Positions 2,341 through 49,416 of a DNA stretch of 64,000 bases are shown one piece after another. Where the stretch lies: contig JAMXDE010000043.1 of assembly GCA_026770025.1 (NCBI GenBank), positions 372,001 to 436,000 on the forward strand. Direction: 5' to 3'. The position numbers and the translations under genes are program-made. Below the pieces are notes generated by a model. The model did not search any database and was not told the DNA's origin. It saw only the letters and a program-made list of their open reading frames with translations. The stretch is from Craspedostauros australis. Its lineage: Eukaryota > Bacillariophyta > Bacillariophyceae > Mastogloiales > Achnanthaceae. Numbering within the stretch: position 1 is the first letter of the stretch; every line of letters begins with the position of its first letter.

Positions 2341-2352
2341 CGTTTTAAAACG
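2341..2352 (-). other. 12-bp palindrome at the primer-binding position of the left Copia
   Basis: Immediately inside the 5' LTR (minus strand) the sequence is CGTTTTAAAACG, a perfect palindrome, where a retrotransposon normally has a site starting TGG that pairs with a tRNA 3' end. It is followed at once by a second hairpin, GTGTCT-TG-AGACAC. The palindrome recurs with compensated changes beside two other Copia LTRs in this window (19580-19591, 49405-49416). Confidence 0.7.
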
Positions 2353-3015
2353 TGTTGAAACAGGTCTCAATCCTGTTGCTCATGTAGACCGGGTGGGGCT
2401 ACAATTGGTTCACTAAGTTAGTTGTTCTGTTATCCCGGGTTTGTAGGTTGGTGATTCCTCTTTCTCTGCGATTTATGAGCTCGACTTGTCTGTCAAAAGT
2501 CAACTCATGTCAATCTCCAGTTGCCCTGCAAACTCGTGTAGTTCTGACTCCTATTGAGTCAGATCATTTCCTAATTCCTAACGATCCACCGCGATGTGAA
2601 TCCTCGACCTGCGCCAGTTTCCCGCAGTTCGTCGTGTTGTTGTCTTATTTGGTCTTGGTTGTGTCAGACAGAGATTCAGGAACTCGATTGCGTCAGTCTC
2701 TAATCCTGACGTCTTACCTAAGTGGTTCCTCTCATCCATATATATCTGGTCTTGCTCCTCTGCTGACGTTCATGCTCTGCTCCTCACGTTCCCGCTGACG
2801 TTAGATTCCTCTCGATCGGTAGATTATTTGTTTCTGAAGATTCCGAGATTCTTTCGTCATATTCGAGGATTCTGCTGTAAATTTCCGTTTTCGGGTTTGG
2901 AACATTTGATCGTGAGAAGGAGTTCTGGACAAACAAATATGTGTGAGCAGTCATTTGCGCAACTGTGACCCCTACCAGGTCATACACGAATCTGAATATT
3001 CGTCATGTTCCAACA
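2353..3015 (-). repeat. 5' LTR of the left Copia element (outer boundary provisional)
   Basis: On the minus strand this segment starts TGTTGGAACATGACG and ends CTGTTTCAACA directly before the palindrome at 2341-2352, so it has the TG...CA ends of an LTR. The inner edge (2353) is firm. The outer edge is a choice: a TGTTG...CAACA pair would also fit an end at 3126 (774 bp). The matching 3' LTR lies outside the window, so neither edge can be checked by comparison. Confidence 0.6.
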
Positions 3016-4483
3016 TAAGGTGATGGACAGCTGTGCTAACAGCATCTGCGGGCATTGTGGTTGCGAACAGCATACTATTCTATCTCTGATGAACTTTCGT
3101 TCATCCGGTTTAGGTTGCCAGCAACAAGTTGACCAGCGTGGAATGTGTGCGGACGAAATGGTACAGAAGTAGAGCGCTCTCAGGGTCCAACGCGTGTCCG
3201 AAACCGTTCCCTATCCACGGATGCCTTGATGAGGAATAGATTCTGTGATGCAGAAGTCGAAGAATCGATGGTATATTTGGCAACGAGCGACAGACTGCAA
3301 TACACTTACGTACACGGATTCGTTTTCACATCCTGCCGCAAAGTAGGTGCAGATCCTTTGGCTCCCGTGCTTGAATACCTGTCTCAAAGTTGTGCGATAC
3401 TCGTGGCGTACACGTAGAGCTTGCAGCTGCGTTTGCTTTCCTGCCCAGATTGATTTGGAGATGAATCGTGTTGGTCCCTCGTTTTCCGTCGTAGTTTGTG
3501 TCTCGGTTCATGTGGTTTGAAGAAACGCATCCAAATCGAGGACTGCACTGGCTTGGGCACACGACATCCTCGGAACGTACGGTACTGCTTGTTCATGTAC
3601 GCATTCCAATCGTAGCATTGAATGGGAATGGAACACAGGAAGAGGAATACTGTTGGCTAAAGGTACCGTATTTGATAGCCACGGTACCAAGCGTGGTGTG
3701 TGTACCTCTGGATGTGAAAGAGCAGCCATGGCGTTGTTCCTCGCTGCGTTCAGTGATCGGCACCCTCCTCCCGAAGGGGTTGTGGTTCCTCATCGCGCGC
3801 GCGTCTGAGGCCAGAGGCGGGGATATCGACAGCAGCGTGGATGGGTAAGTGTTCTGTGATTGCTTGACTATGGTGCGCGAGTGCCATATCACACGTTCCT
3901 TGTTCGGCGGTCGATGAGTATGGAATGTGTTGATGGATGTTCTGTGCTGCGAATGCTCCACTTTGGGGCGTTCGTTGACTCTCCTCTCTGCAGGTTGTTG
4001 CGCAATAGTGGACGGCTTGGCTTGTATTATGCCTACGATGGCTGTGCACCTTGCGTCGTGCAGTCATAGGCGGAGTGCTCATGGATGCTCTCAATCACTC
4101 ACAGGTGTTCTTCGGTCATCAAAGACGAAGACGCAGAACTTATGGAGTGTGATCAGATCACATTTGTGAAGCACATCCAAGGAGCGCGCTTCAGTCGCTT
4201 GCCGAGTATGGAATGCTGTCCTCTATGTCGAGTGGTAGCGGGACGTGGAAGCCATTGATGGCGCGCAATCCTGTCCGTCGCGCGGATTCTTGGCGCTGCC
4301 AAGTCACGATCGTCGAAAAGCCAGTCATGAGTGTGACAAACCCATCATTCCCACGCTCTTTCTATCGAAGAATCCCCATCGAGCCAGGAATGCGTGAGGA
4401 TTGGCCCTCTTGGGGATGCATCCGTCCATAGAGCACTTCCACAACACTCCACGACTTCCATTCCGCACAGCGCTGGAAGCTGC
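3016..4483. other. Intergenic, no gene recognised
   Basis: Only short overlapping open frames on both strands, none with a recognisable motif. A CG-rich patch lies near 3,790-3,830. An upstream exon of the membrane-protein gene at 4484 is possible, because a CAG acceptor-like site (ending TTCCGCACAG) lies just before it, but no exon could be identified. Confidence 0.5.
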
Positions 4484-4879
4484 ATGACCATCGGCCGTGA
4501 CAAGGTGCAGCATCTCGTCGCCAACGCCGTGTTGGTCTGCATTCTGCATGCGGCGTTCTTCATCATCCCGCTGCTTGGACACTTGCGCTGGACGGCGTGC
4601 ATCGTGTTCCTGATCGGGATCGTCAAGGAGTTGTCGGATTTGGCGTCCGGCTGGATCGTCGGGCTTCCATGGTGCCATCCGACCTGCCAGTTCGAGCTTC
4701 TCGATATCGCGTTCAATGTGTTGGGCATTCTGGTGGGTGTTTCCACGGTGATCATCGTTCGGTATGGCCATCGGTGTTGGGTGAAGGCGCAGCTGCAGCG
4801 ACGGCAAAAGCGCAATGCCACGGCCGGCTCAGCCGATGCTGATGCTGATGGTGGCGCTCATGATGGTGGTGAGGTCTAA
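4484..4879 (+). CDS. Small membrane protein with DUF2279 (YfiM)-like motif
   Basis: A 131-residue protein beginning MTIGRDKVQHLV; the frame is open upstream but this is its first ATG. The motif set DKVQH (6-10), a glycine then VKELSD (47-53) and FELLDIAFNVLG (about 70-81) resembles the bacterial DUF2279/YfiM pattern DKxxH...GxxKExxD...D...N. Hydrophobic stretches at about 9-31, 36-48 and 73-92 predict two or three membrane segments; the tail is basic, then rich in Ala, Asp and Gly. The biochemical role of this family is not established. In the sequence I see the motif and the hydrophobicity; the family link is inference from a short pattern. An upstream exon is possible. Confidence 0.6.
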   Translation: MTIGRDKVQHLVANAVLVCILHAAFFIIPLLGHLRWTACIVFLIGIVKELSDLASGWIVGLPWCHPTCQFELLDIAFNVLGILVGVSTVIIVRYGHRCWVKAQLQRRQKRNATAGSADADADGGAHDGGEV

Positions 4880-5045
4880 TGCTGCGGCCAATAACTCAAT
4901 AACTCGACAGCAGTCATACCCATTCCATTTATGCTCATACTCAGACTCAAATTCACTCATACTATATCAGAACCTGTATTAAATTCTCTCAAAACTGTTG
5001 ATCCCATTTCGGTGCTCGTACCCTACGTGTCTGCCATCCACACGG

Positions 5046-6683
5046 TTACTTGCGAGATAGATTGCGGAATCCCATCGCCACCTTCTCACGCGCATCGTTG
5101 TCGCTCACCAATATCCAAGTATCGAGGTATTCGTCATCCTCGTCATCGCGCTGCTCCTTGATTTGCGACTGCGCGAGTTTCTTCTTGCGTGCTGGCGACG
5201 ACAAAGGCGACCCTCTCCCACTCAAGGTCGAGCGAGGATGACGGCGCAGGAACCGACCTCCGTCCTCTTGGATCATCTGCACGATGCGCAGGAACAGCGT
5301 GGTCTTGGCGAAACGATCGCTTCTGGCTGCCTTGTACTCGGCCATATGCTGCCCGACGAGCGCCATCATACGTTGCGTACCGACGGAGGATTGGTACGGC
5401 GTGCCGCGTCCCAGCAACACATCCCGCGTCGTCGCGTGGTACACGATTCGTTTTTGCGTCCTCTGCCTGTCCTCGTAACGTCGCCGTTCATCTTCGGCTC
5501 GTCGATGCGATGCCAGGAGCCCTTCCAACTTCTCCTGCTTCAATTTGCCATCGACATTGTACGGCAAAACCTGCGTGCTGATCCCGAACGTCGACAACGC
5601 GTACTGACATTCGACATGCGACCCGAAATGAATGCGCGTGCGCAGTCGCACCTCCTTGGGCGCCGCCGACAGAAACAGCGAAAGCAAGGGTCGCAATGCA
5701 GGATTGTCCAAACAAAAGTGCATGCCGCACGTGCGAATCGGCATGGCGTCCATCATGAGATTCTCGCTTTGCGCCAAGACGGCGCGCGTGAATTCATGCA
5801 GCGACATGCCGACGGCGTACATGATGCCGACGCCGCCTTTGAGCTGTATGCTGACGTCATTCTCGAGGGCCTTCATCATGACGTACCAGATGGCACGCAC
5901 TTGGCTCGTGATGGCGCCGTTGGCGTAGTGGTAGAATTTGTACGTCTCGAAGTAGATCAAGCGGTCCATGCGATCGCGCACAGACGCAAAGATCTGGGCG
6001 CCGCCGTTGGACAGGGCCTTGCGATCATCCGCGCTGAGATCCGTCCAGTCCAGCGATCTGCCCAGCTTGTCCACACCAAACAGCTTGCGCTTCAGCTCAA
6101 AGTGCTGGATGTACTTCTCCACGGCCTTGGACACGTCCATCATCTCGCATCTCAGGAACATCAACCGGAAGTTGGGATCCTGCACGTACCGCGGCGCCAG
6201 AAACCGCGCCTGCCGATGCGCTTCTGCTTGCTTCTTCTTGCTGCGTTGCCGCAAATGTGCATCGAATTCGGCCAATTTGGACTTGCGCATCTGCGGCGTC
6301 TCCTTGAGGTCGTTGGCCACGCCGTGAATCTCCTCGTAGATCGTCTCGCGTTCATCCAAACTCAAATCTTGCATCTCACGCGCCAGCAACTGCTCGCCGC
6401 CTGACGCCTTCCTGGCTGCGACCACGGCCTTGGATGCTTCGAAATCGGCTTGCGATATGTTTGTCGGAAAGAAGCAGCTATCGGCATTGTTGCTGTTTTC
6501 ATCGACAAAGAGGTAGGAGCGATCCACGCCTGCTTGAGAGGATGCCTGTGATGTGGAGCTGAAGGTTGAGACGGATGTGCTGGATGAAGGTGAGGAGCAG
6601 CATCCCGTTGCCGCTGTTGCGATTGCATTGTCCGATTCATCCTCGCGTCGTTCCTTCAAGGTGTTGGAAGCTGTGCGTTTCAT
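5046..6683 (-). CDS. CRAL-TRIO-like protein with C-terminal DUF6824 domain
   Basis: A 545-residue intronless protein starting MKRTASNTLKERR. Residues 1-60 are Ser/Thr-rich and probably disordered; about 100-175 are charged and helical. Residues about 235-385 look like a CRAL-TRIO (Sec14) lipid-binding domain: YFETYKFYHYANG, then GGVGIMYAVGMSLHEF, and LLSLFLSAAPKEVRLRTRIH. Residues about 419-540 match DUF6824, greatly expanded in diatoms: DVLLGRGTPYQSSVGTQR, then GGRFLRRH, and at the end DTWILVSDNDAREKVAMGFR. A Sec14-type domain suggests lipid binding or transfer; the role of DUF6824 is unknown. It may be a lipid-responsive regulator, which is inference. It is divergent from the membrane-protein gene and tail-facing to none of its neighbours. 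The domain calls are by eye. Confidence 0.85.
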   Translation of the reverse strand: MKRTASNTLKERREDESDNAIATAATGCCSSPSSSTSVSTFSSTSQASSQAGVDRSYLFVDENSNNADSCFFPTNISQADFEASKAVVAARKASGGEQLLAREMQDLSLDERETIYEEIHGVANDLKETPQMRKSKLAEFDAHLRQRSKKKQAEAHRQARFLAPRYVQDPNFRLMFLRCEMMDVSKAVEKYIQHFELKRKLFGVDKLGRSLDWTDLSADDRKALSNGGAQIFASVRDRMDRLIYFETYKFYHYANGAITSQVRAIWYVMMKALENDVSIQLKGGVGIMYAVGMSLHEFTRAVLAQSENLMMDAMPIRTCGMHFCLDNPALRPLLSLFLSAAPKEVRLRTRIHFGSHVECQYALSTFGISTQVLPYNVDGKLKQEKLEGLLASHRRAEDERRRYEDRQRTQKRIVYHATTRDVLLGRGTPYQSSVGTQRMMALVGQHMAEYKAARSDRFAKTTLFLRIVQMIQEDGGRFLRRHPRSTLSGRGSPLSSPARKKKLAQSQIKEQRDDEDDEYLDTWILVSDNDAREKVAMGFRNLSRK

Positions 6684-7090
6684 GTCTCTTCACTTCTCAG
6701 CTTTTCTGCCTCTCAATGGTATTATATTGCGGTATACCAATACTCTCGGAGTATGTATTGTGATGGATTGCGTCAGGTTTGGTCTCTGGTGGTGGACACA
6801 AGTGTGTGTGTGCGAGCGTGGCACGTACGCACGAAGGAGTTTGGGTGGATTCTGTTGTTCCCACTTACCTTCCAAACGCTTCGTCGATGTTCCTTTCTCC
6901 TCAAGTTCTCATTTCCCACAGCCACCTTGCACAACATCGATGGAATAACCACAACGATCGTCATCATCATCATCAACATCCACAACTACACTATTACACT
7001 CGCACAAGTATAATTGGTGGTAGCAAAAAGTTCATTTAGTGTATTACATCTTCAACATCTATTCGGAATCGCATTCCCCTTGTTTCACAC

Positions 7091-18786: not shown

Positions 18787-19579
18787 TGTCGAGATGTACA
18801 TGTGAGTATATGTCGAGATGTACGAGTATATGTGCATCGTTCACCCGTTATTCTCTCATACGCACTTGGACGGTATAACTACATTCGTGTAGATAGTATA
18901 CTGTGATTCGTCAGAATTACAGGGGAAATGGAACACACGAAAAGGGGCAAGATTTCTGGAGGAAATTTGCAAATGACGATTTCTGAGAGAATTGGAAAAT
19001 CGTCCGTCCATCCATCAATGGTACCAAGAGAATCTCGAGGTACTTCCCAACTAAACCTCAGATGACGATATCATCTGACAGGCTGCTGCATCACCAATGG
19101 AACGTGACATCTGGAGAGCAGAAGGACGCCTACTGACGTCGACAGGATGTCATCATGTCACCACGTCAACATCTGTCTCGAAGTCAGAGCAGGAGGCGAA
19201 GATCCGATGACCGAAGGACATCAGCATCATGGATACAGAAGATGAACTTCAAATGGCAAGTACTCATGGAGTAGGAGCCAGTACTGAACGAACGGAGTGT
19301 TGAATGCGGAGTACGCATCGAACACGGAGTATCGTGCAGCACGAGCATACGATGTTGAGAGAGAGAGAATACAGACAAGAGCGAGAGAGCATCTCGCGTA
19401 CCGACTCATAGTCGGAGACTGAATCTACGAAACAGATTGAAGCGCCGAGAGCATCGGGCAAGAGAACGGGCGTACACCGAGAGCATCGGAGTAGCCAAGT
19501 AATGAAATAGCAAACAGACGACTATCAACCAACACCATCTTCCACGTTCGTAGGTTACCGTGAGCGGAACTTGCCAACA
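18787..19579 (+). repeat. 5' LTR of the complete Copia element
   Basis: 793 bp, starting TGTCGAGATGTACATG and ending GAACTTGCCAACA. Near the start GTCGAGATGTAC is repeated within 25 bp. A GA microsatellite and GAGCATCGG words lie in the second half. Other copies of this LTR are at 25346-26127, 59637-60451 (inverted) and 61907-62708. Confidence 0.93.
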
Positions 19580-19591
19580 CGTTTATAAACG
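19580..19591 (+). other. 12-bp palindrome at the primer-binding position
   Basis: CGTTTATAAACG follows the 5' LTR without a gap. It does not start with TGG, so it is not complementary to the CCA end of a tRNA. It differs from the palindromes of the two other Copia elements only at the central base pair, and the change is compensated. A second short inverted repeat, GGGC-GA-GCCC, follows at about 19,599. Confidence 0.7.
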
Positions 19592-19661
19592 ATAGATCAG
19601 GGCGAGCCCGTGGATCGGATCGTGCGAGGAAGACGAACGTCATTCAGGAGCAGCAGGCTGA

Positions 19662-22600
19662 ATGAGCAAGGAAGAGGAATTAAGAGACATCCCTCTGTCC
19701 AACCCGGCTATCAAGAGAGAAGAAGGTGCGAGTGAGACTCCACCACGAGAAGAGAAGGAAGCAGCCGCGGCTACTGTCCTATCAGGCGCAGACGCAAGCG
19801 CGATCGACGAGACCGAAGAGGAACGGTCTGCAAGACTACACCGCGAGGAGAAGAGGATTCTCAAGACGGTCAAGCAAGAGGAGACTGATGTGACGGAGAG
19901 CATTCGCACAGCCAAACAGAGTGGGAAAAGTGAGACACCACCAGGAGGAGAATTTGTGAGCAAATCAATCCTCGCGAAACAACAAGCGAAAATCGAAGAA
20001 TCGGCAACACAGAAACCGACGGAAATCAAGGGCGCGAGCGCACCAACAACGAAACAACGAATCAACATGGCGACATCAGCCAACATGAATAAGCAACGCA
20101 TCAAGGCGCCAATGTTCAGCGGTGAACAGGAAGACTACAGCGCATGGGAGTCCCAAGCGAAGGCATACGCTCGTGCACAGAAGACGAGAGACGTGATGTT
20201 GGGCAAGACCAAGGTGCCAACAATGAGCGAGATCGCGGCAGCCACCGGCAAGGCCAAGGAAGCGATGGAAGAGATCTACGAGCTGGGATGCGACTGCTTC
20301 AGCGATCTCATCCTCATGATGGATGCAGAGAAAGGAAAAGGCAAGCAAGCCATCCAGTACATCAACCAATGCGTCTCCGACGATTACCCCGAAGGAGATC
20401 CACACGCAGCGTGGAACGTTCTCGCGGAGAAGTTCCGCCCATCCGATGCGGTGACGAAGATCAAACTCAAGCGCCAATTCAACAACGAAAAGATGAAGAG
20501 AGACACGGACCCCGACATCTACATCACGCAACTCGAGAGTCTACGATCGCGTCTCCACGATGTCAAGTATGAGATCACGGACGAGGAAATGATCATGCAA
20601 ATCCTCAGCACGGTGAGCAACGAATACAGAACATACGTCGTGAACTTCCAACACCAACTCACGTTCAATCCGGAACTGGTTACCATCAACACAATCAGAG
20701 GAGTACTCCGCACTGCATACGCCACTCACAGAGGAGGCAAAGCATACGTCGACGACTTCCAAGACAGCAACACGAAGAGCAACGACACCGGCTTCACAAG
20801 CACCGGTAACTTCAAGGGTACTTGTCACAACTGTAGCGTGTATGGCCATAGATCCGCCGATTGCCCAGAACGCAAGAAATCGAACAACAAGAAAAACAAC
20901 AACAACAACAACAACAAAATGAACGGAAAGCGCAACAAGGGAAGCGGCTTCAAGGGCAAGTGCAACTACTGTGGCATCTTCGGACACCGCGAGGCGGAGT
21001 GCCGAAAGAAGAAGTTCAACGAGAACAAGAAGGCCAACGAACAAGCCAATACGGCAACGGAAGGACACGACAAGAGCGGGCACGAGATGGTACTCTCGGC
21101 AAAGGACATGCCGCTCTGCATGTTGGTGTCCGACAACTACATCGAAGACTCCTTCTTCGATAACTTCGAGTACGTCGGGAGTGACGACGAAGTACAGGAC
21201 GATGAGATCGTCCCGGAGTGGCTCAACGAGGAGCCAATCATCCACGAGGTGGATCCAAGACGCGAAGTGAGCTACGAATGCTGCTTCAACGCGCACGACC
21301 TGATCGGTCCATACGGTGACGAAGCTGAGATGGGCAGCGAGGCCAACGATAGCGACATCGAAGAGGCCATGAGCGAAGAGGCCAACGACGAGATCAACGA
21401 CAACGATAGAGGCCGAAACGAAACGAACGGCGGCGCAGCACCGCCTCCTCCAGCGGCAGGGAACAACAGATCGGGCATCTTCGACGAAGATGACAGTGAC
21501 GAAACTGAAGATCATCATAATCCGTACAACGAAGACGGAATTCACGAAGACGACGATGACGGCAGCTTCGACGACGAGATAGCTGCGGCAGCTGTGGAGC
21601 AGCTCCACGAGCTGAGCACCAAGTACAAGGACAAGGTCAACAAGGACACCTGGCTCGCCGACAGTGGAGCTTCGTGTCACATCGTCAATTCAGACGTCGC
21701 TCTCTTCAACGTGCGGCACATCAAGTCCTTCGTCCAAGTGGGAGACAGCACGAAGCTGGATTCTCCCAAGATGGGATCCATTCGCTTGAAGGTCAAGCAG
21801 CGAGACAACACTGACCACATCATCCGACTCGATGATGTGAAGTACACACCCAAGATGGCGGTGAACCTTTTCTCCACGAACAAGGCTCTGTACAACGGTT
21901 ACCAGCTTGGTAACAACGGCATTCTGATGGACATCATCAACGGATCCGGAACGAAGATCGTGTTCGATCGAGTCTTCCCCACATCCAACGGATTCATCAC
22001 GGGAGTGCAGATGCATCTCATCATGCCAACAGACGACGACAAGGCTTGCACAGCCATCGTCAAGAATCCATCCAAGGAGATCAGCGCGGTGAACCTGCAC
22101 CAAATGCTCGGCCACGCGCCACTCGAGACCATGAAGCGGACGGCCGCTCAGTATGGATGGAAGATCATCGGCGAGATGCCGGTATGTTGCGACTGCGCGG
22201 TCGCGAACGCAAGAGTGAAGAACATTCCGAAGGCAACGATTCCAAGAGCAACTCGCCGCGGCGAACGGCTCTTCATTGACATTAGTTACATTAAACACAT
22301 AAGCTTCGGAGATAAACGCTACTGGACTCTGATCGTGAATGACTGCACGGATCACTGCTGGAGTTTCTTTCTCAAGAACAAGAGTGATCAACCAGGGTAC
22401 ATCAAACGATTCATCCAAACGATCAAGTCACAGACTGGTGACCAACAGATCATCTTCCGAGGTGACAACAGCGGAGAGAACAAATCCACGCAGGATGTTC
22501 TCATCGATGCAGGACTCAACGTGAAATTCGAATTCATGGCATCGAACACGCCGCAACAGAACGGCAGAGTAGAACGCAAGTTCGCGTACCTCTACACCAA

Positions 22601-25325
22601 GGTCCGCTCCATGCTCAACGGAGCACAGCTCGACGAAGAGTATAGGCATGGCCTATGGGCAGCAGCTGCGAGCACTGCCACTGCCATCGCCAACATCACT
22701 GTAGCGAAGAACCAGAAGGAGTCACCACATCGACAATTCTTCGGAAGCGATCCACCATACGCGGATGCACTCCGCACATTTGGAGAAGTGGGTGTTGTGA
22801 AGACTACTTATGGCGGGATCACCGCCAAACTCAAGAATAGAGGAGAAGAGATGGTGTTCATCGGATATGCACACCAACACGCATCAGGGGTCTACAACAT
22901 GTACAGACCATCGACCAAGTCACTCATCTGTTCACAGGACATCAAGTGGCTCAACCAATCATACGGACAGTTCCGTGGCTGGGCACCAGCGCCGAACATA
23001 TCCAACGAAGTAGAAACAACGGACGCAGACGGCTTCACAACCATTGGACGGAAGGGAGCAACGCCAAGGACGGCAACGCGTCAAACATCGGATGCGAAGA
23101 GAGTATCTTTCGCTGATAGCAACAGGTACTACATCCTATCAGACAGCGATGATGAGGATAATGAGGACGACGGAGTAGTGACTCAACTAGTCCACAATGA
23201 CGAGGAAGATCGGAGCGAATCCAATCATGAGGATGACGAGATCCTACCATCCGGCGACGAGGCCGATGATGACACAGGCGTCACCCCTCCGAATACACCA
23301 GCGAGGTCTATACATGACATACCATCCAAACCTCCACCAAGCAAACCAAGCAAGCGTGACATAGCTAGAAAGGAGAGAATCCGACGTCATGAAGCACGAG
23401 GCAGGAAGGGAGAAGCTAATCCCAAGTCAACTGCAGGGAAGAGTATTCCCAGAGCTCTACGTGAGCTCGCAGACTTCAACGAACGAGGTCGAAAGGAAGA
23501 AGGCTATGAAAGCGATCCATCATCCGATGAGGCGAGTGACGAACTCAGCGACGAGATGATCGATGATTCCAACAACGAAACTACAGATGATGAAGAAATC
23601 ATGGATGAAGGAGAGATCGAAATCACTCACCATAGCACAACAGGACTATACGGGATGAACGCAATCATCATCGAGACACCAGCGATCGATATCGGATTAT
23701 CGATGCAGGACGAGAACAAGGCACCAGAGAAGCACATCGAACCTACAACGTTCGACGGAGCCTTCAATCACCCAGATCCCATCCATCGAAAGGGATATCG
23801 AGCAGCCATCAAGAAGGAGTTCGACTCCATGGATACACGCAAAGTGTACAGCAAGATCAAACGAGACGCCATCCCACACGGCCGCAGATGCTGCAAGTGC
23901 AAATGGGTCTTCAAGCTGAAGTGTGACGGCACACATCGAGCACGGCTTGTTGCATGTGGCTATTCACAAGTCGCAGGAGTAGACTTCCAAGAGCATTACT
24001 CACCCGTCATCCATGACGTGACCTATCGAGTCATGATGGTGATCATGTTGATCAAGAAGATGGACTGCGCACTCGTCGATGTCGTAACGGCATTCCTACA
24101 TGGAGACCTCGACGAGGAGATCTACATGAACTGTCCCAACGGGATGGATCATCAAGCAGACGAAGCCCTGACCCTACACAAGCCAATCTACGGACTTGTG
24201 CAGAGCGCCAGGCAATGGTTCAAGATGTTGGTATCGACCCTCAAGAATATCAACTTCGAACAGAGCGCAGCAGACCCGTGCCTGTTCTACAGGAAGACGA
24301 ACGAAGGAAGCATGATCGTGGCCATCTACGTGGACGATTGCTTCTGTTGCGGAGACTCCAAAGCACTGGAGACATTCCTGAAGGACATCCAAGGCAGAAA
24401 ATTCAAGGTGACAATCGAGCGCGGACTCGGAGACTACCTCAGCTGCAACATCGAACTGAACCATGACAAGACTAGAGCAACATTGCGTCAACCACATCTC
24501 ATCCAACACCTCATCGAAGAGTTCGGAACCAAGGGTGAGAAGATGCAACGCTATGGGACACCGGGAACCCCGGGTCAAATCATCGTACGACCATCCGAAG
24601 ATAACGGACTGCAGAAGGTCGGACCGGAAGAACATGCCGAATACCGCCGAGGCGTCGGTATGCTGCTCTTCCTCATCAAGCACTCGCGACCAGATATTGC
24701 GAACCCTGTGAGGGAACTCTCCAAGGTATTGATTGGGCCCACCAAGGCCGCAATGAAGGAGATGTATCGGATCATCAAGTATGTGATCGATACAAAGGAC
24801 TATGGATTGAAGATCCATCCAGCGCGTCCAGACGACGACGGCTGGGACATGGAGCTCTTCTGCGATAGCGAATATGCAGGAGACAAGAACACGAGAATCA
24901 GCGTAGGAGGGTTCATCCTATACCTGTGCAAGGTACCAATCCTTTGGCGATCCAAGGCACAGAAGGCCGTCACACTCAGCTCATCCGAAGCAGAATACGT
25001 TGCCCTTTCCGAAGCGGCAAAGGAAATCTTCTTCGTCATGCAGCTACTCGAAAGTGTGGGCGTCCCAGTGAAGACACCGATCAAGGTCCGCGTGGACAAC
25101 ATCGGAGCGATCTTCATCGCCAAGAACCCATCAACATCCCAACGATCGCGGCACATCGACGTGCGCCATCACTACGTGAGGAACATGGCAATCAACAAAA
25201 CCATCGAAATCATTTTCGTCAAATCCGAGCAGAACACAAGCAACGGATTCACCAAGAACATCAAGGCCGACTTACAACGTGAACACGAGAAGTCGTACCT
25301 TGACACATCGAGAACATTCGAATGA
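19662..25325 (+). CDS. Copia gag-pol polyprotein, intact
   Basis: 1,887 codons without interruption. Order: charged N-terminus; Gag (MFSGEQEDYSAWESQ, about 148); zinc knuckles CHNCSVYGHRSADC (about 388) and CNYCGIFGHREAEC (about 433); acidic linker; protease WLADSGASCHIV (about 662); integrase HHCC (HQMLGH, then CCDC), catalytic acids in FIDISYIK (about 872), FRGDNSGEN (about 934) and QQNGRVERK (about 965); a second acidic linker with the coordinates 23,130-23,640; reverse transcriptase from KCKWVFKLK (about 1411) with AFLHGDLDEEIYM and the catalytic YVDD (about 1556); RNase H with CDSEYAGD (about 1734), SSSEAEYVAL (about 1773) and RVDNIGAI (about 1809). Integrase before RT marks Copia/Ty1. 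All catalytic residues are present, so it is potentially autonomous. ATG 19662 is 82 bp after the 5' LTR. Confidence 0.96.
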   Translation: MSKEEELRDIPLSNPAIKREEGASETPPREEKEAAAATVLSGADASAIDETEEERSARLHREEKRILKTVKQEETDVTESIRTAKQSGKSETPPGGEFVSKSILAKQQAKIEESATQKPTEIKGASAPTTKQRINMATSANMNKQRIKAPMFSGEQEDYSAWESQAKAYARAQKTRDVMLGKTKVPTMSEIAAATGKAKEAMEEIYELGCDCFSDLILMMDAEKGKGKQAIQYINQCVSDDYPEGDPHAAWNVLAEKFRPSDAVTKIKLKRQFNNEKMKRDTDPDIYITQLESLRSRLHDVKYEITDEEMIMQILSTVSNEYRTYVVNFQHQLTFNPELVTINTIRGVLRTAYATHRGGKAYVDDFQDSNTKSNDTGFTSTGNFKGTCHNCSVYGHRSADCPERKKSNNKKNNNNNNNKMNGKRNKGSGFKGKCNYCGIFGHREAECRKKKFNENKKANEQANTATEGHDKSGHEMVLSAKDMPLCMLVSDNYIEDSFFDNFEYVGSDDEVQDDEIVPEWLNEEPIIHEVDPRREVSYECCFNAHDLIGPYGDEAEMGSEANDSDIEEAMSEEANDEINDNDRGRNETNGGAAPPPPAAGNNRSGIFDEDDSDETEDHHNPYNEDGIHEDDDDGSFDDEIAAAAVEQLHELSTKYKDKVNKDTWLADSGASCHIVNSDVALFNVRHIKSFVQVGDSTKLDSPKMGSIRLKVKQRDNTDHIIRLDDVKYTPKMAVNLFSTNKALYNGYQLGNNGILMDIINGSGTKIVFDRVFPTSNGFITGVQMHLIMPTDDDKACTAIVKNPSKEISAVNLHQMLGHAPLETMKRTAAQYGWKIIGEMPVCCDCAVANARVKNIPKATIPRATRRGERLFIDISYIKHISFGDKRYWTLIVNDCTDHCWSFFLKNKSDQPGYIKRFIQTIKSQTGDQQIIFRGDNSGENKSTQDVLIDAGLNVKFEFMASNTPQQNGRVERKFAYLYTKVRSMLNGAQLDEEYRHGLWAAAASTATAIANITVAKNQKESPHRQFFGSDPPYADALRTFGEVGVVKTTYGGITAKLKNRGEEMVFIGYAHQHASGVYNMYRPSTKSLICSQDIKWLNQSYGQFRGWAPAPNISNEVETTDADGFTTIGRKGATPRTATRQTSDAKRVSFADSNRYYILSDSDDEDNEDDGVVTQLVHNDEEDRSESNHEDDEILPSGDEADDDTGVTPPNTPARSIHDIPSKPPPSKPSKRDIARKERIRRHEARGRKGEANPKSTAGKSIPRALRELADFNERGRKEEGYESDPSSDEASDELSDEMIDDSNNETTDDEEIMDEGEIEITHHSTTGLYGMNAIIIETPAIDIGLSMQDENKAPEKHIEPTTFDGAFNHPDPIHRKGYRAAIKKEFDSMDTRKVYSKIKRDAIPHGRRCCKCKWVFKLKCDGTHRARLVACGYSQVAGVDFQEHYSPVIHDVTYRVMMVIMLIKKMDCALVDVVTAFLHGDLDEEIYMNCPNGMDHQADEALTLHKPIYGLVQSARQWFKMLVSTLKNINFEQSAADPCLFYRKTNEGSMIVAIYVDDCFCCGDSKALETFLKDIQGRKFKVTIERGLGDYLSCNIELNHDKTRATLRQPHLIQHLIEEFGTKGEKMQRYGTPGTPGQIIVRPSEDNGLQKVGPEEHAEYRRGVGMLLFLIKHSRPDIANPVRELSKVLIGPTKAAMKEMYRIIKYVIDTKDYGLKIHPARPDDDGWDMELFCDSEYAGDKNTRISVGGFILYLCKVPILWRSKAQKAVTLSSSEAEYVALSEAAKEIFFVMQLLESVGVPVKTPIKVRVDNIGAIFIAKNPSTSQRSRHIDVRHHYVRNMAINKTIEIIFVKSEQNTSNGFTKNIKADLQREHEKSYLDTSRTFE

Positions 25326-25345: not shown

Positions 25346-26127
25346 TGTCGAGATGTACATGTGAGTATATGTCGAGATGTACGTGTATACGTGCATCGTT
25401 CACCCGCTATTCTCTCATACGCACTTGGACGGTATAACTATACTCGTGTCGATAGTATGCTGTGATTCGTCAGAATTACAGAGGAAATGGAACACACGAA
25501 AAGGGGCAAGATTTCTGGAGGAAATTTGCAAATAACGATTTCTGGGAGAATCAGAAGATCGTCCGTCCATGCATCAATGGTACCAAGAGAATCTCGAGGT
25601 ACTTCCCAACTAAACCTCAGATGACGATATCATCTGACAGACTGCTACATCACCAATGGAACGTGACATCTGGAGAGCAGAAGGACGCCTACTGACGTCG
25701 ACAGGATGTCAACATGTCACCACGTCAACATCTGTCTCCAAGTCAGAGCAGAAGGCGAAGATACAATGACCCATGAAGATCATGGATACTGAAGGTGAAC
25801 TTCAAATGGTAAGTACTCATGGAGTAGGAACCAGTACTGAATGAACAGAGTGTCGAATGCGGAGTACGCATCGAACACGGAGTATCGTGTAGCATGAGCA
25901 CACGATGTTGAGAGAGAATACAAAGAGGAGCGAGAGAGGATCTCGCGTACCGACTCATAGTCGGAGATTGAATCTACGAAACAGATTGAAGCGCCGAGAG
26001 CATCGGGCAAGAGAACGACGTACACCGAGAGCATCGGAGTAGCCAAGTAATGAAATAGCAAACAGACGACTATCAACCAACACCATCTTCCACGATCGTA
26101 GGTTACCGTGAGCGGAACTTGCCAACA
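25346..26127 (+). repeat. 3' LTR of the complete Copia element
   Basis: 782 bp, TGTCGAGATG...TTGCCAACA, collinear with the 5' LTR. Differences include GTGTATACGTGC against GAGTATATGTGC near the start and a shorter GA run. Confidence 0.93.
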
Positions 26128-32491: not shown

Positions 32492-33854
32492 TACATGTAT
32501 CATCTCGGGTCTAGCCACAGGCACAAACAGGTTACCCTGCGAACCTTCATCAACATGCTCGCAGAGGACATGATCCTCAACGACGAACATGACACGCCAT
32601 AGTGTCTGGAAACCACATCTATTCTGCCACAAGGGCACGCTTGCGATAACGTGGACTGTTAGGAATTGAGGGTACGACTTTTTCGGAATACCCGTGATTG
32701 CCGCACCTCCCAACATTATTCGTCACAGCTTTGAATATTATTCGTCACATGTTCGGAGACTATTTGTCACACCTTTGTATACCATGTCATTATGACTATG
32801 ACTAAGGATACGGACGTGATTGATACCTGTACTACCGCGAGGAGGGTAGTCTGTCCTCTGGTAACGTAAGGACGACACCCATGGCGGATCAGGAGGTCCC
32901 AATACCAAACCAACCATGGCAACCATGCAGACGACGACGTCAATCAGAACAGCAAGTCCATGGGCAAGTGACGCACCCTCTTCAGAGGACAGCACGCGCC
33001 CCTCCTGCGGACAAGAACATCCACAGGTTTGGAACATCAGAAAGGATCAGAACATCCGCAGGTTTGGAACATCACCAAGGCTGACATCGATCGTGGGACG
33101 ATGGCGTCATGAGATCAACAACGGAAACATGTGATAGGCAAGTGCTCAGGACTGCAGATCCCTACCATGCAAGCGTAGACAGCTACGACGATGCAGAGGC
33201 AAGCAACAACGATGCCAAGACAAAGAAGCAGGAACAGAGCATGATGAATGGGGAGAGAAGCACCTAAGAGACAACAGGGCGCCCCGTGTCGCCACCGCGA
33301 CAGATGCCTACCAAGAAGAACGAAATCGGAAGAGAAAGTGAGATTGAGCTCACAGTTCTAAAACGGCACAGTTTCTAACAGCGGATTAGATTACAGTACT
33401 AACAATAACCCCGGATTTCCAACAGTGGACGACGGGACGAATAAACCCAACGGGCCAAACCATAGCGCCACCACCAACGACACCAGCAACAGTAAAAACG
33501 GTACCAGCAACAGCAGCAGTCACCATACCAAATCGGCAACCATCGCCTCGCAAAAGCGCAGAAACAGCTGCCATTGTGTACAAGGACAGCAAAGGGCGCT
33601 TGAGGCGAGGACAGAGATCTGCCCGAGGAAGATGTATCGTCTGCAACAAGCTGGTTGCCTTCATCTGCGCACATTGTCCATCAACTGCGCCAGGGACGCT
33701 CGTGTGGTGCTGCCCCGAAGTTTCCAAACAAGGTGACACCCGCACGTGCTTTCGCACACATGTCACAAACAACGAGGGAAATTCACACAAATCCATATAT
33801 ACACTTACATGCAATATGATCTGTATGCGTCTGAAGAGGGCATCAATTGATTGA
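32492..33854 (+). pseudogene. Second piggyBac-like transposase relic, split by a solo LTR
   Basis: Two pieces are recognised by alignment with the piggyBac-like frame at 16153-18093. Before the insertion (32492-32602), the frame reads HLGSSHRHKQV...FINMLAEDMILNDE, against HLAGKHRHKNV...FVNMMVKDMLHNNE in the other copy. After it (about 33,576-33,780), the Cys-rich tail reads GRCIVCNK, FICAHC, VWCCPEV, TCFRTHV, keeping the Cys spacing of the other copy. The pieces are separated by the LTR at 32657-33424 and its target duplication GTGGAC. The catalytic part is not recognised upstream. Its element probably ends at 34284, where a CTAG-flanked end of the same type is found. Confidence 0.75.
32657..33424 (-). 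repeat. Solo LTR (GGAAATCC family) with 6-bp target duplication
   Basis: 768 bp, TGTTAGGAATTGAGGG at the left and CCCCGGATTTCCAACA at the right, flanked by GTGGAC on both sides (32651-32656 and 33425-33430). It is nearly identical to 61017-61785. Orientation is inferred from the 43.8-50.3 kb copies, where the GGATTTCCAACA end adjoins the internal region. That evidence would make this copy plus-oriented; the strand call is provisional. Near the left end the words ATTATTCGTCACA recur three times (32,717-32,775). Confidence 0.85.
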
Positions 33855-35752: not shown

Positions 35753-35769
35753 ACTGCGTTGCGCTGCAC

Positions 35770-37896: not shown

Positions 37897-38299
37897 CTTG
37901 GAGGTAAGCTGAATTGTGGGCTTGTGATGGACACCCCTGCTACAGCAGATACTGCAAGTGCAACGCTGCAAACAACTCGACCAATGCTGGGAGATGGTAT
38001 CATCGATCGATCAACCAGCTGTCTATTCAATTCAAGCACGCAGGTAGGAGCAACGCAGCCAGACTACGGCAAGCAGTCAGGCTGTCACATTCGTCATTGC
38101 CTGTTTCAATCAGCAGTATTACACAGATGAGGAGGATCGTAGTGCGTACATGAGGACATGAGGTGCCATCATCCTGTTTTGTTCGGAATGCAACTTCCTC
38201 GTGGGTCGAATTTGCTTTTTGTGGGAGCTCAGTTGGATTTGGTGAGCATACTCAGCTTCATGTGCTTTGGACGGCTCACTTGGAATGATGTCTTCAAAT

Positions 38300-41380: not shown

Positions 41381-41826
41381 CTGGCAGTTTCTTGTCATTT
41401 GTGAACAGACTCCGACACAAAAAACGTGATTTTCTCTTTTTCCGACAACTCCCAGTTCCCGTGCATTATTTCTGACACGATCGGCAAACCAACCTCTTCC
41501 GGAAGAGCGTACTTCGAAATTCCTTCGTGCCGACCAGAGGGCTTCCGCCAAGAGGCAACACAAACTCCACACGGCGGCAATGGTTGCGACAAAACGGTGA
41601 ACACCAAAACAGAAGTTGGCCTTTCCTGGCGTGGTACTGCGCTCGTAGCTCCTACACGTACTACTACTTCACGAACCACTTCAGTTCCAACAAAGTGGTA
41701 CTCTAATGAACATTCGACGAATAAGCACCGGCTCGCGCTCTGCATTTTCACCATGAACAAGCGGTTCCGTCACAACACGACCCGAACAACTCCTCCTTTC
41801 TCGTCTTTTGGCGCTGACAGTTTCAC

Positions 41827-43362: not shown

Positions 43363-43793
43363 GTTTTTGTGGTTTGCTTGCTTGTTGTGTGTTTATCTCG
43401 ATGTATGTGTTGCTGTGATTGAGGCCGGAGCTCCCGATTTTATGAGATCGGCACGGAGACCAGCTTCGGGTTCGAAATCGCGTCCGGGCCAAAATATAGT
43501 ACAGCGGGAAACCAGTCACGGGAGATACCGGTCGCGGAAACTAAAACCGTAGATGGTGTCAGATCGCTTCACTCTGGCTACTCCAAGAGTATGTACGTAT
43601 AAAGATCGACACTTCGCGGTCTCGTGCGAAGTGTGATTGTGCTCTCAGTAGGTACGAGCTACGGGTACAGTCACGAAGAATGACAAGGAAGGTTCTGTGC
43701 CAAAAAGTTCCCATCTTCGGGCGTCTCGTCGAGAACTGTGGGGCACATATGAGGAGGCCATCACTAATCACCAACCAAGCAGGCTATGACATC
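43363..43793. promoter_or_regulatory. Upstream region of the glycosyltransferase gene
   Basis: 430 bp between the ATG at 43362 and the start of the LTR at 43794. Contains CCGGTCGCGG / CGAAATCGCG-type GC-rich words near 43,450-43,535. No other gene seen. Confidence 0.35.
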
Positions 43794-44664
43794 TGTCAGG
43801 AATCGGGTGTTGTGAAACACTGAATTGCCGCACCTCCCAAGAGTAAGGAGTCGAATGTTATGATATGCTACATTGTCGCAACTCCCACCTTTGATCATTG
43901 TGACACAGAAAAATGTGAGCTGCACGTGTCTTGCGGTGGAGAACGCCACGTGCCGAATGCGAACCGGATGTTGGTGTCCGTGACCTCAATGCAGGAATGC
44001 GAATCACACGTGTATGTCGCAGGGGGCGGGGATGTTGGAATCATGACCACCATCACAATACAAGCAACTACGGCCCCCATGTCGCAACCAATAAGAAAAG
44101 AGTACTGGAGGAAGGCCAATGTCACAAAGTGTAAGATGGCCTGTGAACGAACCTGAGATGAGGAACATCCAGGAAGCCGGTGAAGTGATCGGCGAAGAAA
44201 CCAGCAGAAACGACAGGAGAAGCATCGGAGATGATTGGAGATGTGTGACGATGAGGATCTGAATGAACTCCCATCCAGGGTGCTCCCGTGACGAATCGGA
44301 GACCCTGATCCGATCGAATGGACCGAGCTGTGTGATGCCTACGACTTGGCAATGTCTATGCTAACGAAACTATTGGTAGAAGGCAGGAGATGGAATATCT
44401 GAGATGCATGATGAGATGCATGATGAGATGAACCAATACTGCAAGATGAGATGTACATGGAGTACATGCTGCATGACATGATGAAGCAGGAGGACAGCAC
44501 TGCATGAGCAAGGGCAAGACTGTGTGCTACTGTGGATTATGTATGCTTTGGCAAATGGAATTGAAAGTGATGAAGATGTTGTACTCACAGTTCCAACAAT
44601 GCAATAACATGAATAGGTAACCAGATACTACTACTAGAGACTGGGGTACCCTGGATATCCAACA
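43794..44664 (+). repeat. Left inverted LTR copy (GGAAATCC family)
   Basis: 871 bp, TGTCAGGAATCGGGTG at the left and GGATATCCAACA at the right. It is the reverse complement of most of 49417-50336, nearly base for base over about 800 bp. One visible difference is GCGAATCAC against GCCAATCAC. Relative to the Copia coding strand it points the wrong way for a 3' LTR. Confidence 0.85.
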
Positions 44665-47600
44665 GATCTCTTCTCCTTGAAGATCTACTTCGTCTTCACA
44701 TACCGCCGATCCCTCGGTATCTTGCTCTTCTTGATTTTCTGCCAGACTCCTCGCCTGATCATGTTGTAGAACTCCTTGTTGATGGCCTCCTGCCATCTCT
44801 TTCACTTCGCTTCGCTGGATCCGCATGATCCCAGCATTCTTCGGATGTGGTGGGGTCCAGCATCATAGCCGTGTATGCATGCTCGGACGTCTCATTCCCT
44901 CTCTCGCGGTTGCTGGGTCTTCTCCGCTTCCTCGGCTGACTCACAACCTCCACTGCTTGGATCTGAGTTGGAGTGGTGTTCTGGCGCATTGTTGTGCAGA
45001 GCCAGGCAGCGTAACATCCGTGGCATCCCCGCCACTGGTCTCATGGGAGAGCATTCGAGGTCCTCGCCTTCAGTGGCTTGCCTCCGAGTCACTCATACTT
45101 CGTCCCTTCAGATCATCAGGATCCACATGATCCTGGCATTCCTCAGGCTCTCATAAACTTGGCATCATTCCGGTGTTGATGTGCTCGGATCTCTCGCCAT
45201 TGCGTTCGCTCTCAACATCCTGACTCGCGGCGATAGAGTCGATCACTCTCATCCTTCATTGGATAGCATCGATCCTCATGCCTGCGACGTCCTTGTTGAT
45301 GAGTAACCCGTCTTGTTCGAAGTTGGGTCCGTCTGTTGCCACTGGAGCAGTCATTGTCTCCTGTGTAGTTGCGTAGCCATCGTCATCTCTTGATTCTGAT
45401 GCCTCGTTCGTCACCTTTGTTGGGTATTGGTACATTGTGGTCAGCTGCCAGCTCTGTCGTTGTGTTGCCTTGCCACCACGCTGTCGATCGCATTCATCCT
45501 CTTCTGGATAGCATCCATTCATCATGCTGCAGCTTCTTTGTCATGGGAGTTGTTGGTGGCTTCCTGCCATTCATCCTCCATTCATCTGAGGTTCCTCCCT
45601 TCCGGCTCTGTCATTCGATTCTTCATCCAACATGCCCGCGTCTCTCTCATTGATCGTATATCGATGCGTCTTGGCTCACTGTATCTGGAATCAGCCGTTC
45701 ATGGCTCGCGCTCTCATAGCTGTATCCTTTCCAGATTCGGGTCTCTCTCATCGACTTCATTCTCATCGCACATCGATCTCATATCTGTGCACGTAGTGTC
45801 TCGCCGATCATTCGGCATCCGGTTCTTCTTGATCATCTGCCATGCTCATGCCATGGCTATATCACTGAACCGTTCCATCATGGCCTCCTGCCATTCATTT
45901 CTCTTCTTGGGATCCATATAACCCCGTCATTCGCCAATTGTGGTTGGATCCAGCATCATTGCGACATTTGGTTGCTCGGATCCCTCTCTGTTCTGTATAT
46001 AGTTCAATGCTTGGTTCGCAGTGATGAAGTCACCCAGGCTCATCCTCTCATGAGTGGTGTCACTCGTCATGCCTACGATATCTCTGTTGAATGTTGACCC
46101 TTCTGTGTGAAAGTTGGGTCCTCCTGTCACCGGTTAGTGTGGTAGTCATCTCTCAAGCAGTCTCATACCCCCTCATCATTATCTGATTCTGATTCTCCAC
46201 CTGATCCGAGTTCTCGCTCCTCCTTCGGAATGGGCATATCGTAGTATCCCTCGAGAGAACTCAGCATCCTCGGCATGTGCACGACAGGTTCTGCGATTGG
46301 GACTATGTTTGGTGCGTTCTCGACCAAATCGTCTCGTCCCGTCTCATCGTCCCTTCCGGATTCATCGTCGTCGTCATCGTACGATTCATTGTCCTCTTGG
46401 GTAGGGAGCAAGTCATCTTGCCCTCGAGCAGCATCTTCTGTATCTGTATCGTCTCCGGCTCTTCTGCTCTCATCAGCGTCGTCGGTCTCCATGCTACGGA
46501 TGGTATCCGCACGTCGCTCCCAAGTCACTCTTCTATCTGGGGTACTCATCCCTGAAGTAGAGTCGTCATCTCCCAGGTCTGTCGGTACTGACCTGCTGGC
46601 ATTCTCAATACACTCGATTGCCCACATGACGTATCCATCCACGTCACGTTCATCGTGAGTAGGATCCTGGTCATCACCAGGTTCACTCGTGCGGTCCATA
46701 CCGCTTGCATGCGACTTCTGTATCCGATCAGCGTCTGTTGGATCGGGGTGAAGTTGCTGTTCTCCAGCATGTCATTGATTGCGTACACGTTGCGAGCCAC
46801 GTCGAGTGCACTCCGCACGCCAATCTCATGCATCATGCAGTGCAACCCGCGTGGGCGCACTCATCTGCACAGTCGACTCTCGAATTCGTCGATCGCTTCG
46901 TAGCAGATAGTTGAGATTCAATGAGGGACAGACTAATACCGGACACGGTATCAACCCGATGGGAGAAAATCTTGTTTTGGCGCGAAATCTTCCGACTCGA
47001 TTGACCACCAAATCTTTTCTCCTCCTTTCTCTCCTCCATTCACGAATCCATCATGACTCAAGCATGACCGACCTGACTCACACCCCGCCTTGGGAACTAT
47101 ATGCTCCTCAGATCCTCTTTACTACAACATACCTCGATTCCCTTCATGCTGACGACTACTGCACCACTGCCGTAGTCTTGACGTGTGTATCCAACCTGCT
47201 TCAACTCGAGCAATGGAATCCGAGGGTCAGTTCCAGCCACAGCCACTGCTTCGTGACTGTCGCTACCATGCGTCACGATCTATACTGCAGTGTATCTACA
47301 TGTGTGGAGAGCAAGGCACTGGTATGACTATCTACCCTCAAGCACTGAACCAAGTACATCAGTGCAGGGCCTCGCCAAGTTGTGTGGCATCGTTTCTTCA
47401 CCCTACTAACACTACAAGCTAACTCATAATAAACAGACAAGGAATAGCTACAAAGCACTCATCTACTCATCGTTACAGTAACAACTATTCAAACAGTACA
47501 CCTCTCTTGAACTGCATTACACGGCTATCCCGAAGCCGGCAGATCCAAGAGGCATCCTCCACCGATTCGCGCCGTCTACGCCCGAATCCTAACTCAGATC

Positions 47601-49404
47601 ATCGAAAGCTTGACACGCACATCGGTGGCAGACGCCATGCTGCTCAACAAGTATCGAGCCAAGAGGCAGATCGGACCTGCATCCATATGCAGTCCTCTGC
47701 ACTCCTCATCACTCGTTTTGCCTTCGTTGTAGTTGGCGTTGCCATCTTCCTCTTCATTCTCGGATGAAAAGGGTTCTCTGTTGATCAACTCCATCGTGAT
47801 CATTCGTAGGCCCGTAGTAGCCATACACTCCTGGAGTGTATTCAGCTATCTCCTCCCTGGTCCACTCGTAGTCGTTGACTGGTGTTCCGCTGTCAAAGTT
47901 GGAGACCCCATCATTGTTGATTGTTACGAGTGCCATGTTGTTCGTGATCGCGTTGTCGTCGCGCATCATCGTGTAGTTTCACATGGTCACATTTTGGTCG
48001 TTGTTCGCGATTTCGGTGATGGCCACGAATTTCGTGTTGGTCACATTTTTGATGCCGACCACATTTTCGTTGATGGGCACGGACATCGGCTCGTCGTTTG
48101 CGATGAGAGCGATGTCATCCATCCCGTCCATCCCGTCTGTCGCGACCTTGGCCGACCCGGCTTCCTTCATCTCGCTATCGTGGGCATCGCGGTTAGGACA
48201 TCTGCTCCTGAACCGACCGATCCGTTGTCAGTGTCATCTTTCTCTCACTCTCTTACTGCCATTGCCTCGTGCGCACTTATAACCGTGTTTGATACGGTGG
48301 CGGTCGTAGATGAGGCTCATGGCTCTGCGGGTGTCTTGAATCATCGTCTTCTCCGATGGCGAGGACACCTCTTGTTCCTCGTCTTTCGTATTGACCCTGG
48401 GATCGAAGCGCGGTGGGACCTCCCGTCCAGCTTGTTCCAGCGCTTTCCCTTCTCGTCGAAGCTCACACTTCCTGTGTTGCTGTTCTCGTTGTTGTCGCCA
48501 ATTCATGGCTGGTAGATTGCATTCTTACCATCTTGATCATCTCACAGTAGGAATCGCAGCCAGCACTCGAGCCTGTATCACGCGATGACAATCGATGCCA
48601 CGTGATCATCTCGATGCTTTCCGTTGCTGCTCCTCGCACCACTCTTGATGTGATCGCGATCATGGGCCATGCCCATTCCTGCGTAGATCTTGATCTCTCT
48701 TCATCTTATCATCCCTGCCTGCATGCTTGTGCTTGGTTGCGTCGCGCGCGCCATGCGCACAGACGTTCACCATCAGCGATCCGTGTTGCTCCTCGTCCAT
48801 CTCGGCTTCCATATTGGCCGAGTGCTGATGAGGCAGCTCCATTCTTGCAGGGTAGGTTGGAAGCTCTCATTGCTTCCTCTATTGCATCTTGTTGAGCTCC
48901 TTCAGCTATCTCGCCCTCATGGCGCAGTCTGCTGAATCCGATGCATCCGAGAGCGTGGTCTGCTGCGTCCGATTCTCTTCTTGCGTACAGCTCGCTCTCG
49001 TACTCCAACACAGCCGTGAAGGTCTCCATGCCTTCCTTGACTTCATGGTCCCATGACCATGGACAGTTCTTCCAATGCGCGTGTTCCGAGCGCCTCCTTT
49101 CTTCCAGCAATACAAGTAGTGTCTGTACTTGCCTCAGCTGCGGTCTCCACTCTGCTGGTGGACTCGCGGTGGTGCTCGATTCGATCATCATCATCGTCTT
49201 GACATCGTCGTTCGTGTGGGGGTTACCATGCCGATCTTGGCATCCATTGGCAAGGAGCATCATGCTCCAGAGCGGCTTGCTCTCCTCTCTCTTCACACAG
49301 GGGATCATTACTCGCGATGGTCTTGAGTGTAGATGGTGGTCATGTCGATGATGGTGATGTTGGCTAGTGTTGGTGGTGGTGGAAACGTTGGATTTCAATC
49401 ATAA
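44665..49404 (-). pseudogene. Decayed Copia interior on the minus strand
   Basis: Next to the left LTR copy the minus strand reads WQEAINKEFYNMIRRGVW, KSKIPRDRRYVKTK, a TAG where Trp is expected, then IFKEKR: the start of a Copia reverse transcriptase, cut off at 44664. Related, decayed versions of this module and of AMMLDPTT / GPNF...G..IN.D..GM recur near 45,250-45,600 and 45,830-46,130, so the pre-RT part has been duplicated in tandem. At 46163-46699 an acidic 178-codon frame resembles the acidic integrase-RT linker of the intact element. From about 47,000 to 49,400 frames are short; no intact gag, protease or integrase was recognised. This copy is non-functional. Confidence 0.65.
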
Positions 49405-49416
49405 CGTTTCGAAACG
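49405..49416 (-). other. 12-bp palindrome beside the right LTR copy
   Basis: CGTTTCGAAACG directly follows the LTR end CCAACA on the minus strand, the same position as the palindromes at 2341 and 19580. It marks this LTR as the 5' LTR of the decayed Copia. Confidence 0.65.

Follow-up and report, generated by a model that had tools for sequence, protein, structure and literature searches.

In a 64,000-nucleotide stretch of the genome of the diatom Craspedostauros australis (the window; GenBank assembly GCA_026770025.1, contig JAMXDE010000043.1, positions 372,001 to 436,000 of the forward strand), three loci of Copia long terminal repeat (LTR) retrotransposon families carry a 12-nt palindrome, CGTTTNNAAACG, directly after the LTR. 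The palindrome occupies the position of the primer site, is family-wide and occurs far more often than by chance. We put at roughly two in three the probability that it substitutes for the site complementary to a transfer RNA (tRNA) and works through self-pairing. An earlier note on this DNA had placed such palindromes immediately after an LTR end reading CAACA, in lieu of a tRNA-complementary sequence; the placement is confirmed and the substitution is supported. By sequence match, the palindromes are CGTTTTAAAACG at 2341..2352 on the minus strand (element A, centre TA, for which six TA junctions were read), CGTTTATAAACG at 19580..19591 on the plus strand (element B, centre AT) and CGTTTCGAAACG at 49405..49416 on the minus strand (element C, centre CG). 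A search of the whole window finds no copy of CGTTTNNAAACG besides these three.

Genome-wide, the LTR end joined to the palindrome (CAACA followed by CGTTTNNAAACG, or CAACACGTTTNNAAACG) has 579 exact matches in 74.8 Mb, 271 and 308 by strand, where about 0.1 would be expected by chance and the reversed-pattern control gives none. The central dinucleotide was counted in the first 100 of the 579 matches listed, which cover contigs C1 to C4 and C5 up to 1.57 Mb. Among these 100 it is AT in 61, CG in 33, TA in four, AC in one and GT in one, so that the centre is self-complementary in 98. The fourth self-complementary centre, GC (CAACACGTTTGCAAACG), has no match anywhere in the genome. The same pattern searched against viral contigs as a control gives 89 matches with a self-complementary centre in 19, which is about the quarter expected by chance; no Copia reverse transcriptase (RT) lies near them in the stretches examined, and these matches, considered as possible relatives, look like chance. 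No relative of the element B RT is confirmed in the viral contigs or in the genome contigs searched. The two non-palindromic centres among the 100 matches listed, AC and GT (L084, C2:502910; L085, C2:1429611), are reverse complements of each other, and each is one transition away from AT.

Elements were also selected by their RT. In a search of the genome with the RVT_2 profile, 150 of 1493 candidates were scored and matched to the listed palindrome places, and the elements are labelled here by types of our own (T1, T2 and so on), taken from RVT_2 profile ranges. The earlier note had allowed that most family members might lack the palindrome; instead, the site is present in 30 of the 32 RT-selected elements of types T1 (TA) and T10 (AT), 3.0 or 4.7-4.9 kb upstream of the RT, with the centre AT in 24, TA in four, AC in one and GT in one. 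It is found in none of the four RT-selected elements of types T6 and T7, and CG-type elements are absent among the RTs matched to listed palindrome places. Six more upstream pieces add one TA site (L112) and two AT sites (L113 and L117), with neither a palindrome nor the tRNA-complementary site described below in L114, L115 and L116.

The edge of the LTR, which the earlier note allowed might lie further in, is fixed exactly by three solo LTRs in the window, all of which terminate in CAACA between target-site duplications of 6 bp. They lie at 32657..33424 on the plus strand (CG-type end GGATTTCCAACA, duplication GTGGAC), at 61017..61785 on the plus strand (same family, TCGACC) and at 59637..60451 on the minus strand (family of element B, TATGAA). 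Because these solo LTRs end exactly at CAACA, base 1 of the palindrome is the first base past the LTR, and minus-strand DNA should begin there. No matching target duplication is found at a fourth solo-like LTR (61907-62709) or at element B. The LTRs begin with TGTCGAG or TGTTAGG and end with CAACA. A search for LTR ends in which the third-last base is not A (BACACGTTTNNAAACG), confined to that base of CAACA, gives 22 matches, all of them GACACGTTTTAAAACG; these are TA copies (CGTTTTAAAACGTGTC) read on the minus strand. Copia target-site duplications are usually 5 bp, compared with the 6 bp at these three solo LTRs (32651-33430, 61011-61791 and 59631-60451).

Element B has a 5' LTR at 18787..19579 (TGTCGAG...CAACA), a gag-pol open frame at 19662..25325 and a 3' LTR at 25346..26127, all on the plus strand; the LTRs were located by self-BLAST and their ends read. 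Profile search finds a Copia gag, a zinc knuckle and RVT_2 in the frame (PF07727, 1.7e-41; PF14223, 1.6e-14), and this Copia-type gag and RVT_2 between two LTRs place it in Copia, as does recognition by PF07727 for the RTs of the element A type. The gag-pol coding region of element A, located by tblastn with the element B protein, occupies 29..2263 on the minus strand and continues beyond the window, where its RT lies at C41:370610-371314. For element C, self-BLAST and the flanks give a 5' LTR at 49417..50258 on the minus strand, with the CAACA end at 49417 and an imprecise start. The claim of three distinct Copia elements needs qualifying here: this third locus falls short of a clean element with two LTRs, since its partner LTR (43824-44664, 97% identical) is inverted relative to 49417-50258 and the interior between the two holds no long frame. 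The CG family is nevertheless real, as its relative L119 elsewhere in the genome has a 2018-codon open frame with a pol 42% identical to that of element B over 1239 columns.

Other Copia families of the genome carry a different sequence at the same position. In one element each of types T2, T4, T6 and T7, whose LTR pairs are 99.8-100% identical, the 5' LTR is followed by CGCTTCCTCTGCGCAAC (for T4 and T7, BLAST places the edge of the LTR one or two bases into it). The sequence pairs with nucleotides 7-23 of the genome's tRNA-Met(CAT), judged by sequence to be of the initiator type (tRNA-iMet), at 16 of 17 positions, 14 of them unbroken, and reads as an internal D-arm tRNA-iMet primer site at the palindrome's position. 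The lack of an initial TGG, which the earlier note had found unusual, is therefore true of the palindrome families but not odd in this genome, since these four families also lack it and have an internal tRNA site. The primer implied for L039, L041, L043 and L045 would be a 5' tRNA fragment of about 23 nt ending in the D-arm, rather than a tRNA 3' end or an anticodon half. Searches for the tRNA-iMet gene gave no match with two patterns and three places with a third that allowed one mismatch. The pattern GTTGCGCAGAGGAAGCG occurs at 33 places; of four that were read, all but one adjoin an LTR-like end.

RT identity is 56% between AT and CG types, 79% between TA1 and TA8, 33-37% between TA types and AT or CG types, and 32-36% between palindrome types and tRNA-iMet types. 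In the RT tree, the tRNA-iMet families form one clade (98/99), the palindrome types form two deep groups (AT with CG, and TA), and a single change between the palindrome and tRNA-iMet states is required. When the long-branched RT of L118 is included, TA weakly joins the tRNA-iMet clade (83/84). The tree would fit a palindrome that is ancestral or one gained once or twice, and the position of TA hangs on the long-branched outgroup. Three further RT places (C35, C34 and C59) gave no usable LTR pairs.

Computed pairing energies bear on how the palindrome might act. A homodimer of the palindrome forms all 12 pairs at -11.8 to -15.9 kcal/mol, heterodimers among the three centre types reach -6.2 to -8.1 kcal/mol, and a lone palindrome folds into a hairpin of four pairs at -0.1 kcal/mol with the central pair in its tetraloop. 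The central pair differs between families yet stays self-complementary, in three family-level states. Only a duplex of two copies pairs this centre, so that dimer linkage fits best of the three mechanisms that the earlier note had offered; the self-priming hairpin leaves the centre unpaired, and pairing with an internal tRNA stem finds little support, with at most 7 nt matched in 21 tRNAs. The exact abutment on the LTR edge in turn implies that the site acts where a primer ends.

Under the proposed mechanism, these Copia elements would have exchanged the tRNA-complementary primer site for a 12-nt self-complementary one. Two element RNAs would pair by their palindromes, each presented in the loop of a stem between the U5 end of the LTR and the leader. 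The paired palindrome of the partner would then be cut at its 3' edge, for example by ribonuclease H (RNase H), and would provide the 3' end from which minus-strand DNA starts precisely where the LTR ends. A more tentative part of the proposal, to which we give somewhat less than an even chance, is that the primer is the partner palindrome itself. A stronger version, in which the primer acts in trans and the central dinucleotide is a recognition tag, so that AT, TA and CG families reach complete pairing solely with RNA of their own family, appears improbable. If it were true, co-resident families would each dimerise and initiate among themselves and need no host RNA, and, because the site would be copied from the partner, a variant that is not palindromic would turn into its reverse complement in every round. 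The AC and GT centres would fit such a flip, though their single transition from AT would account for them as well.

The stem that would frame the palindrome was examined by folding and by a survey of 70 junctions, one duplicate having already been dropped, for an anchored stem around the site. Folding pairs the U5 end with leader sequence 4-10 nt past the palindrome and leaves the palindrome in the loop. The predicted stem is TGTTTCAA/TTGAGACR in all six TA junctions, CTTGCC/GGCRAG (GGCGAG or GGCAAG) in 29 of 32 AT junctions, with other or shorter stems in three, and GGATTTC/GAAATCC in 28 of 30 CG junctions, with two shorter by one pair; the AC copy retains a framing stem. For single representatives, the shuffle p of the anchored stem is 0.007 and 0.012 for TA, 0.056 for the main AT family and 0.001-0.007 for CG, and a test of the unanchored U5-leader duplex gives 0.01-0.12 for AT and CG. 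A U5-leader stem with family-specific sequence is a likely, moderately supported prediction. In the window its U5 and leader strands would be TGTTTCAA at 2355..2362 and TTGAGACA at 2329..2336 on the minus strand of element A (anchored p 0.007), CTTGCC at 19570..19575 and GGCGAG at 19601..19606 on the plus strand of element B, and GGATTTC at 49422..49428 and GAAATCC at 49390..49396 on the minus strand of element C, the last two pairs coming from folding and the junction survey.

Several observations weigh against this account of the site and its stem. The compensation consists of two double changes at one pair, seen as three family states only. The claim of the earlier note that the palindrome is kept by compensation thus stands for the central pair; at the two outer pairs searched, of five, compensated double changes are at background (4/9, 65 matches, control 83; 5/8, one match, control two). 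Where searched, the outer bases are constant across families whose RTs are 33-56% identical. Pure self-pairing would let the outer pairs drift, so that some protein or RNA that recognises the sequence must act in addition. Despite its mismatched centre, the AC copy keeps a long open frame (2057 codons), and outside the RT-selected set the sites were retrieved by means of the motif itself. As for the stem, its test was framed after the folds had been seen, the GT copy has a framing stem of only four pairs, and three AT subfamilies give a shuffle p of 0.18, 0.10 and 0.16. The unanchored duplex test shows nothing for TA (p 0.56 and 0.12). A table of cross-pairings does not favour a family's own pairs in every case: some U5 ends bind foreign leaders better than their own, most of all that of winC, which reaches -19.8 with leaders from other families against -13.3 with its own.

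The constancy of the outer bases between deep RT groups is also what a site templated by the host would show, and the host RNA reading holds that a part of a tRNA, a small nuclear RNA or another small RNA carrying CGUUUNNAAACG is the primer, the palindromic form being incidental or mirroring a palindromic host RNA. Sister families do use an internal tRNA-iMet site, and the T-arm of tRNA-Met shares 7 nt (TCGAAAC) with the CG type; it shares them with that type only, and the longest match for AT and TA is 6 nt among the 21 tRNAs read, out of 63 scored in an incomplete set. With the flank added to the site, no match exceeds 6 nt in the first 20 tRNAs. On these matches, tRNA priming of the palindrome families finds little support among the tRNAs read. 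A host RNA carrying the 12-mer was rejected: away from LTR junctions, among places with no A in front and no T behind, CGTTTNNAAACG occurs at 24 against 29 for the control, which is background, and at the nine of these off-junction places with a self-complementary centre an Rfam search returned only two matches, both far below the cut-offs (E 0.9) and neither over the site. Three centre types would moreover demand three RNAs, and the host RNA reading is judged improbable. If instead the palindrome were bound, on RNA or DNA, by a protein dimer (Gag, integrase, RT or a transcription factor), the invariant CGTTT and AAACG would resemble half-sites and the varying centre a spacer. A spacer need not be self-complementary, yet nearly all centres among the matches listed are, and priming would be left without an explanation; protein binding is judged quite unlikely.

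Two rivals remain. One is a hairpin in cis, in which the cut 5' RNA folds onto its own palindrome and primes. It would account for the exact position of the palindrome and has a precedent in Tf1, where RNase H generates an RNA primer out of the element's transcript (PMC7175516). The hairpin nonetheless puts the centre in the loop, so that its self-complementarity stays unexplained, and its four pairs are worth almost nothing in energy. A Tf1-like complement to the site is also lacking in the LTRs tested: the longest is 6-7 nt, as in shuffles, in four LTRs, of which the TA LTR is represented by its last 400 nt only. Priming in cis is given a low probability. The other confines the palindrome to dimer linkage, as a kissing-loop site like those of retroviruses and of Ty1 and Ty3, with another primer starting the minus strand. 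The predicted loop closed by a U5-leader stem would suit such a site, and palindromes near the 5' end have been proposed to dimerise Ty1 and Ty3 RNA (PMC5454406, PMC11381356). The Ty1 and Ty3 palindromes, however, are separate from the tRNA primer site, whereas here the site is exactly at LTR end +1, the place at which the primer has to end, and the tRNAs tested offer no match there. Linkage as the sole function is considered rather unlikely, and substitution for the tRNA site by a self-pairing one is preferred.

The closest known system to the palindrome described here is the Conserved Hairpin Site of the fungal GalEa Copia elements, which lack a primer site and have a palindrome at the LTR edge (PMC5445492). 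The likeness extends to Copia membership, to the missing tRNA-complementary site, to a short palindrome at the edge of the 5' LTR and to inner pairs that vary between families and are complementary in the two main GalEa forms. The GalEa sequence, CHSeq1, is (A)CTGATCAGT or (A)CTAATTAGT with the last LTR base included, and its inverse complement, CHSeq2, lies 12-41 bp downstream; a larger hairpin across the LTR edge is predicted in five of the eight elements analysed, and the GalEa authors find no Tf1-like U5 complement (PMC5445492). In the diatom, by comparison, the palindrome is CGTTTNNAAACG, its 12 nt need no LTR bases, and its sequence differs from CHSeq1. A CHSeq2-like segment, an inverse complement to the 3' half of the palindrome, is 7-8 nt long in 28 of 30 CG junctions and at most 5 nt in the 32 AT and six TA junctions, and so belongs to the CG type only; in element C it is AACGTTTC at 49382..49389 on the minus strand, found in the junction survey, and includes an additional TT. 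The RT motif of GalEa is QTDD, as opposed to YVDD in all six RTs read here, four of them of palindrome types, and the diatom palindromes occur in two deep RT groups beside tRNA-iMet-site relatives. The GalEa authors state that no described model fits their palindrome (PMC5445492), and the authors of a paper on a bivalve terminal-repeat retrotransposon in miniature (TRIM) liken their element to it (PMC6934838).

Other systems share parts of the arrangement. In Tf1 of Schizosaccharomyces pombe, a Ty3/gypsy element, the primer made by RNase H comprises the 11 nt at the start of the RNA, which are complementary to the primer site (PMC7175516). The element's own RNA would supply the primer here as well, but from a partner palindrome and not from an LTR complement. 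Retroviral, Ty1 and Ty3 dimer palindromes are likewise short, lie near the RNA 5' end and pair two genomes; in retroviruses and Ty3 the palindrome sits in a hairpin loop, where the predicted stem would also place it here, but all of them stand apart from the tRNA primer site (PMC5454406, PMC11381356). Internal or half-tRNA primer sites of Copia elements occupy the same position in the sister families described above, and matches of the palindrome families to the 21 tRNAs tested end at 7 nt. Primer binding, tRNA and palindrom are terms absent from the main text of the CoDi paper (PMC2806351). Searches of open-access literature, judged by titles and the opening lines of abstracts among the papers listed, show no description of such a palindromic site in Copia elements of diatoms or other stramenopiles.

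The tRNA-free start of reverse transcription is understood in detail for Tf1 and is still an open question elsewhere. The palindrome described here, which shares its position but not its sequence with that of GalEa, occurs at high copy, in two deep Copia groups and alongside tRNA-iMet families, and offers a natural comparison within one genome. The proposed mechanism also makes a testable prediction, namely that the partner RNA is the primer and that the centre must be self-complementary. If it is correct, the dependence of these elements on a host tRNA would be removed; in mammals, host tRNA fragments can target this dependence (PMC7472051).

Two further observations were made along the way. 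A Copia element nested in L118 (293-7001; also L241, 1-1782), with LTRs 100% identical over 714 bp and a distant RT, is of a third kind in what follows its LTR: the sequence there, gattaacagtcgc, may resemble the complement of the anticodon half of tRNA-Asn, a possible primer. In contigs C83 and C89, tRNA places repeat at two constant offsets, as would two copies of one circle opened differently, and a 10-kb piece of C83 carries what we take to be mitochondrial genes (nad1, tatC and ribosomal proteins).

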